Positions 8,733 to 9,847 of a stretch of 10,623 nt of DNA are shown here, in pieces (within the stretch, counting starts at the first letter, position 1; each line of letters starts with the position of its first letter). The DNA lies in NCBI GenBank assembly GCA_005888755.1, contig VBBQ01000006.1, positions 1 through 10,623 of the forward strand, written 5' to 3'. Both the position numbers and the translations under genes were made by a program. Source of the stretch: Candidatus Bathyarchaeota archaeon. GTDB lineage: Archaea; Thermoproteota; Bathyarchaeia; 40CM-2-53-6. Below the pieces are notes generated by a model. That model made no database searches. It saw only the letters and a list, made by a program, of their open reading frames with translations, and had not been told where the DNA came from.

Positions 8733-9847
8733 TTACCTCGCTTCTATCCTCTGCATCTGTTCCAGGGGTTCGGGATGCTTGTCGAAATAGTCTCGTACTC
8801 CTCTAAGCATGTCAGCTAGGATTCTAGCCATGTTTGCTTTGAGGTCTTGCGGGTGGATCTTTTCGGCTTTGTATGCTTCTTCGAGTTCGTTGAAGTTGGA
8901 GAATTTCAAGTCTCCCCCGTACTTCTGGTCGCGTTTCAGAACGACTGTCTTGTTTGCCGGGAAGGCGAGGAGGCGGTAGTATTCTATCACCGGGTTTCCC
9001 TCGACTATCTTGGGTGGGCAGTATGCTCGGCGAAGCTTCTCTTCGATGAGCTCAGGAGTGTCATGGAGTAGTATCGTGTTTTCGGGTTTGCTCTTCGACA
9101 TCTTTGCTTCAATCACACTGCTCAGTTTAGGATCCTCATCATAGCTTCCTTTGTCGGATCCTTGTATGCCGGCTAGGCCCATTAGCATTGGGGTGTGGAG
9201 GGCGACGGGTTTTCCCCATTTCAGTTTTTCGCCGGCTTCTCGCGCTAGAACGTGCGCTTTCCTTTGATCTATTCCGGCGCAGGCTAAGTCTAGGTTCATC
9301 TCGAATATGTCGGCTGCTTGCATGCAGGGGTAGAAGAGGCTGGCGGCTTCGACGTCTTGCGTTTTCATGTCACGGCCCATGATGGGCAGTGCTCGCATGG
9401 CCCGTTGCGCTGTGATGGTTTTGGCGATTCTGATGACTCGTTCCCAGTAGTTTGGCTTGCTAGCGAGTTCTGAGGCCCAGACGTATTCGACCTTGTTCTC
9501 TGTTAGTCCGAGGGCTGTGAAGCAGTGTTTGAAATATTCGCCAGCTGTTTCGATCTTTTCCATGTCGCCGCCGAACTTGTTGTTTATCATGCTGTGCCAG
9601 TCTGCGAGGAATATGATGAAGTGGAATCCTGCTTGGATCATATCTTTGATCTTTGTGCCGCAGACGAGTCCTGTGCCGATATGCATCATTCCAGGCAGCT
9701 GTGCTAGGAGGGCTGCTTTCCGGAGCATTCGAAGCCCCAATACGCCCGAGGCTTCTTCTTCTCTTCCAGGACGCGTTCGAGTTCTGTAGGCTGGATGATC
9801 TCCACCGTTCCCCTAGTAACTAGTTCGAGGCGCTGTTCTTGGCTCAT
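8733..9847 (-). CDS. tyrS: Tyrosyl-tRNA synthetase, archaeal type, interrupted by 29 nt
   Basis: Charges tRNA-Tyr with tyrosine in the cytoplasm. The start is ATG 9847, with a perfect GGAGG five bases upstream (9853-9857). The first 43 codons read a normal N-terminus ending RAYWGFECSG. The frame then runs into TAG at 9706-9704. The rest of the enzyme continues in another frame from MMHIGTGLVCG onward. Removing 29 nt gives a 361-residue protein of usual length. In that numbering the HIGH motif is HIGT (46-49), the tyrosine-pocket set is Y36, Y163, Q167, D170 and Q185, and KMSKS is at 239-243. LADWHSMINNK and the C-terminal PCPPK-like turn (YCPPKIVEGNP) are also intact. Every other part is preserved, so this does not look like an old pseudogene. 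Likely first gene of an operon with the Toprim gene. A start at 9740 or later would miss the essential N-terminal strand. Confidence 0.86.
9693..9721 (-). other. 29-nt interruption inside the HIGH region of tyrS
   Basis: On the coding strand, codons GAA TGC TCC GGA are followed by 26 extra bases and then a second GGA leading into ATG ATG CAT ATC GGC. Excising 29 nt joins SG directly to MMHIG, the spacing seen in archaeal TyrRS (SG-x-x-H-x-G). The repeat GGAA flanks the insert, so its exact edges are ambiguous by four bases. The insert has an in-frame TAG, and 29 is not a multiple of three. A hairpin (GCAGC 9716-9712 with GCTGC 9699-9695), extended by CCGG/CTGG pairing across an AAA bulge, spans it. 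Confidence 0.72.

Follow-up and report, generated by a model that had tools for sequence, protein, structure and literature searches.

The closest described counterpart of an intron in an archaeal mRNA is the bulge-helix-bulge (BHB) intron of cbf5. The cbf5 introns are 16-44 bp in length, have been placed in Desulfurococcales and Sulfolobales, and follow a cut rule in which cleavage falls between bulge nucleotides 2 and 3 (PMC2738675). Most of these introns also have a relaxed BHB motif. According to a 2020 study, no archaeal gene other than cbf5 had been reported to carry a BHB intron in its mRNA (PMC7714728), and a BHB in the 5' UTR of the HVO_1309 mRNA of Haloferax volcanii was reported to be cleaved by EndA (PMC7714728). 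Among the papers found, the cbf5 intron is the one archaeal mRNA BHB intron for which splicing has been shown, and earlier predictions for other genes are unverified.

The window, i.e. the whole 10,623-nt stretch of DNA analyzed, is a contig (C47) of an uncultured soil Bathyarchaeota MAG with a genome (G000) of about 2.0 Mb and 95% completeness; among named genomes, soil 'Candidatus Bathyarchaeota' MAGs stand nearest to it. The tyrS gene was located on the minus strand, with the ATG at 9847-9845, a Shine-Dalgarno sequence GGAGG upstream, and the stop TAA at 8735-8733. The 43 codons from the ATG ended in ...YWGFECSG. Behind them came 29 nt in which an in-frame TAG was present, followed by MMHIGTGL..., and the downstream part was open in a frame different from that of the first 43 codons. 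After removal of the 29 nt, a 361-aa protein was obtained which matched the archaeal tyrosine--tRNA ligase model NF006330 over 1-357 with 418 bits, whereas the downstream part by itself reached 370 bits. The interruption of tyrS by 29 nt between SG and MMHIG, as claimed in an earlier note on this DNA, was thus confirmed, and 32 further genes of the class were found to be interrupted at the same site. The interval given there, 9693-9721, was one of five equivalent registers, because GGAA flanks the 29 nt on both sides, but the BHB cut rule set the intron at 9717-9689 instead.

Under this rule (PMC2738675), exon 1 (43 codons plus 1 nt, the N-terminal part of the NF006330 model) would occupy 9718-9847 of the minus strand, the 29-nt BHB intron with the TAG inside would occupy 9689-9717, and exon 2, which carries the NF006330 match, would run from 9688 to 8733. 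The predicted intron was in phase 1, with the codon ATG split after its A, and the predicted spliced junction ...TCC GGA A/TG ATG CAT... encoded SGMMH. In the joined sequence TCCGGAA was followed by TGATGCAT, and the predicted junction peptide was ECSGMMHIGTGLVCGTK, with ECSGMMHIG across the site.

The BHB layout of the site was [CCGG]AA^A(GCAGC)ccuccuagcaca(GCUGC)[CUGG]AA^U, all on the minus strand. The 5' strand CCGG of the central helix was in exon 1 (9720-9723), and its 3' strand CUGG was the 3' end of the intron (9691-9694). The inner (intron) helix was composed of the 5' strand GCAGC (9712-9716) and the 3' strand GCUGC (9695-9699). The 5' bulge AA^A (9717-9719) had a predicted cleavage at 9718/9717, and the 3' bulge AA^U (9688-9690) at 9689/9688. 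The outer helix past the 3' bulge was weak or absent, so that the strict hBHBh motif of canonical tRNA introns was not formed and the tyrS motif was assigned to the relaxed BHB type. The folding energy of the site was ordinary (z -0.2 to +0.5), and the case for an intron therefore rests on geometry and comparison rather than on stability. A canonical BHB with such spacing occurred at an arbitrary position of this genome with a frequency of about 1.7e-4. Group I and group II self-splicing introns were rejected as candidates in view of the size of the tyrS inserts, just 21-53 nt, and no Rfam match was obtained in the window.

TyrRS genes were fetched or scanned first in 61 genomes of the class and later in 256, and 67 of these genes were readable at the site. 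An insert was present at the identical position in 33 of the 67 genes, distributed over at least 7 families (f1, f2, f4, f5, f9, f21 and f25), and no insert was present in the other 34. All congeners in which tyrS was found carried it, with a length of 22-24 or 29 nt and a varied sequence. An assembly or sequencing artefact, one of the options raised by the earlier note, might be suspected, as the sequence comes from a short contig of a MAG; but the same site was occupied in 33 genomes from different samples, and these independent MAGs carried inserts which had diverged in sequence while compensating changes preserved the structure, leaving a negligible chance for this option. Some relatives did lack an insert, which the earlier note would have taken as a sign of an artefact, but an artefact is not implied by this, because intron-bearing and intronless tyrS were interspersed among relatives, as was also the case for the cbf5 intron. 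On the TyrRS tree, about 10 changes of intron state were needed, at least 6 of which were forced by well-supported branches.

The inserts fell into all three frame classes (7, 5 and 21 genes). The frame was changed by 26 of the 33, and all 7 frame-preserving inserts contained an in-frame stop. A broken frame in a genome about 95% complete could also be explained by a pseudogene or a recent lesion, provided that another TyrRS took over the function. When the genome was searched, however, a single TyrRS was found and the second PF00579 match was TrpRS. Furthermore, the exons were intact and were conserved at 87-91% identity between close congeners, and the insert was old and structurally conserved. 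A recent lesion backed by a second tyrS copy, likewise proposed in the earlier note, is accordingly extremely improbable. No tyrS intron was found outside the class by a phylum-wide pattern, which needs Trp before GFE and hence missed many archaeal TyrRS, and no relative was found in an IMG/VR scan. In another genome (G065), which also has a 34-nt insert, a further tyrS-like site was observed (L241, C4:17223-17276), whose BHB-like insert has 19 nt; this site could represent a paralogue or contamination.

The BHB geometry was recovered in all 33 intron-bearing genes, with a 4-bp central helix, two 3-nt bulges and an inner stem. In each gene C(C/U)GG of exon 1 paired with the final bases of the insert, and the second 3-nt bulge fell at the start of exon 2. 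All four pairs of the central helix were formed in 27 genes and three of four in the other 6, all of family f1, which had CCGG:ACGG with one G-A mismatch. Compensatory changes were detected in this helix (CUGG:CCAG, CCGG:CUGG and CCGG:CCGG). The inner stem, of 3-9 bp (just 3 pairs in L011), closed a variable loop. When the BHB cut rule was applied blindly, the frame was restored in 33/33 genes with CSGMM, CSGLM, SSGLM or PSGLM before H, and the residue at the junction was always L or M, where intronless homologues had L, M or F. In the inner stem, 90 of 95 pairs were formed over 19 distinct arm pairs (20,000 re-pairings gave a mean of 70.5 and a maximum of 82), and the codon literally downstream of the insert would give I or V at the junction in 13/33 genes versus 0/34 intronless ones (Fisher p = 2.3e-5), the sequences being related and uncorrected for relatedness, so that the re-pairing and Fisher figures both overstate independence. 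The Ser-Gly codons of exon 1 were invariably TCY GGA in intron-bearing genes and variable in intronless genes, a constancy which is attributed to the requirement of exon-intron pairing.

These comparisons bear on translational bypassing. The bypass of T4 gene 60 has a GGA...GGA arrangement. A similar event at tyrS would have the ribosome stop at GGA, hop over 29 nt with the hairpin and resume after a matching GGA, and the window does offer a GGA to either side, together with a hairpin and a UAG close by; GGA-UAG also followed exon 1 in several relatives. In most families outside f1, however, the landing GGA was missing and replaced by AGA or AGU, and landing would produce the I or V not seen in any intronless homologue. 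Bypassing also leaves unexplained why the bulges always have 3 nt, why the central helix between exon and intron covaries, and why the same architecture occurs at the unrelated cbf5 and pcm sequences described below. The BHB geometry and covariation thus argue for splicing, and bypassing of the T4 gene 60 type is very unlikely. Removal at the RNA or translation level, the remaining option of the earlier note, was upheld in this way and narrowed to BHB splicing of the pre-mRNA. A two-piece TyrRS was also considered, composed of a short N-terminal peptide and a C-terminal polypeptide initiated at ATG ATG CAT. The ATG codons at the start of exon 2 and the open downstream frame are in line with it, but such an enzyme would be split in the HIGH nucleotide-binding site, intronless sisters encode a single chain, and the BHB geometry, the covariation and the constraint on the Ser-Gly codons would have no explanation, which makes two separate chains highly improbable. 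Splicing of a BHB intron is the reading followed below.

Two further putative mRNA introns were detected in the same genome. In cbf5 (C4:17753-17775), a 23-nt BHB intron split the catalytic Asp codon behind its first base, at the position reported for Crenarchaeota. The cbf5 intron was present in all 30 Bathyarchaeia cbf5 loci fetched first, with lengths of 17-30 nt, and was absent in genomes of families f10, f13, f14 and f17. In pcm, encoding protein-L-isoaspartate methyltransferase, a 21-nt BHB intron was located within GQTISAPHMVA (C46:36191-36211, minus strand); the joined product matched PF01135 with an E value of 3.6e-67, and the halves with 3.4e-11 and 2.4e-48. The pcm intron was found across f1 and also in members of f11 and f15, and was absent in other families. 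The tyrS, cbf5 and pcm introns were all in phase 1, i.e. after the first codon base, and all were within highly conserved or active-site motifs. A separate observation was made in the cbf5 of another genome (G042, C11:291700-295300, minus strand), where a 22-nt BHB intron was accompanied by an in-frame insertion of several hundred residues, which resembles an intein bearing a homing-endonuclease-like domain (797-aa frame).

Scans combining BHB geometry with coding potential took in about 35% of G000 and about 26% of a second genome (G029). In the G000 stretches tyrS, cbf5 and pcm were recovered, and the other top matches resembled gene boundaries or noise. In the G029 stretches tyrS was recovered; decoy geometries gave 2-3 matches each versus 3 for the true geometry, so introns cannot be counted by the BHB scan alone. 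A homology-based search for split genes yielded just a tRNA and an antisense pair.

The genes for a splicing machinery were also present. G000 encodes two EndA-type proteins, one with the catalytic Tyr/His/Lys (judged by eye) and one without, a pair which, as judged from sequence, fits the (alpha-beta)2 hetero-oligomeric architecture. Efficient cutting of relaxed BHB has been reported for two EndA types, of which this architecture is one (PMC6379350). A gene for the RtcB ligase was found as well. Most tRNA genes found in the G000 stretches read carried inserts: on about 0.69 Mb, ARAGORN called 2 tRNAs without introns and 14 when introns were allowed (one of the 14 being counted twice through overlapping stretches), which indicated that the tRNA genes of G000 are intron-rich.

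The features by which a pre-mRNA BHB intron is recognized, namely a complete protein after joining, BHB geometry, a frame restored by the cut rule, and genes for endonuclease and ligase, were found together at tyrS. Geometry, site conservation, compensatory variation, frame restoration and the EndA and RtcB genes were observed directly and support this assignment, and we are highly confident that the 29 nt represent an archaeal pre-mRNA BHB intron removed by the tRNA-splicing machinery. The cleavage and ligation of the tyrS pre-mRNA are inferred by analogy with cbf5. In the proposed course, CCGG of exon 1 in the tyrS transcript would pair with CUGG at the 3' end of the intron, and the intron hairpin GCAGC/GCUGC would stack inside, producing a BHB with a weak outer helix. 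EndA alpha and beta would then cleave after nucleotide 2 of each 3-nt bulge, and RtcB would ligate the exons into an mRNA for the complete 361-aa TyrRS. An unspliced mRNA would give a short truncated peptide only.

These results suggested that Bathyarchaeia carry mRNA BHB introns in at least three genes, tyrS (almost certainly), cbf5 and pcm. One tentative possibility is that the introns of these three genes, and perhaps of more, make up a small group that is still active in evolution, occupies the best-conserved active-site codons and has been gained and lost repeatedly. Such introns might be left over from formerly mobile ones, or might act as switches tying the output of TyrRS and Cbf5 to the capacity for tRNA splicing; a regulatory role is speculation. 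The tyrS and pcm introns, together with the cbf5 intron in a new class, suggest a wider use of the tRNA machinery for mRNA splicing among Archaea. Genes of this kind are easily misannotated as frameshifts or pseudogenes, and a single-copy essential synthetase that could not be made without splicing would provide a clean test system.

The tyrS intron is almost certainly of a known kind, the BHB intron of archaeal pre-mRNAs, here seen in genes and a lineage that are new for it; no report of tyrS or pcm introns was found in the open-access literature, so priority is not proven. With the crenarchaeal cbf5 intron (Watanabe 2002; Yokobori 2009, PMC2738675) it shares a short length, phase 1, a relaxed BHB, a position within the catalytic motif that an essential gene encodes, cleavage behind nucleotide 2 of the bulge, a patchy pattern of gain and loss, and a hetero-oligomeric EndA. 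It differs in the gene and in the lineage, Bathyarchaeia, and cbf5 splicing was verified by cDNA whereas tyrS splicing is inferred; the Bathyarchaeia cbf5 intron itself lies outside the crenarchaeal orders reported for cbf5 introns. The motif, cut rule, size range and machinery are common to tyrS and the archaeal tRNA BHB introns (Marck and Grosjean motif), but the host RNA of tyrS is an mRNA, with no tRNA body to aid recognition. In HVO_1309 the BHB is likewise in an mRNA, but in the 5' UTR rather than within the coding frame. The GGA...hairpin...GGA order of T4 gene 60 also occurs in the window, but its landing codon in tyrS is not conserved in relatives.
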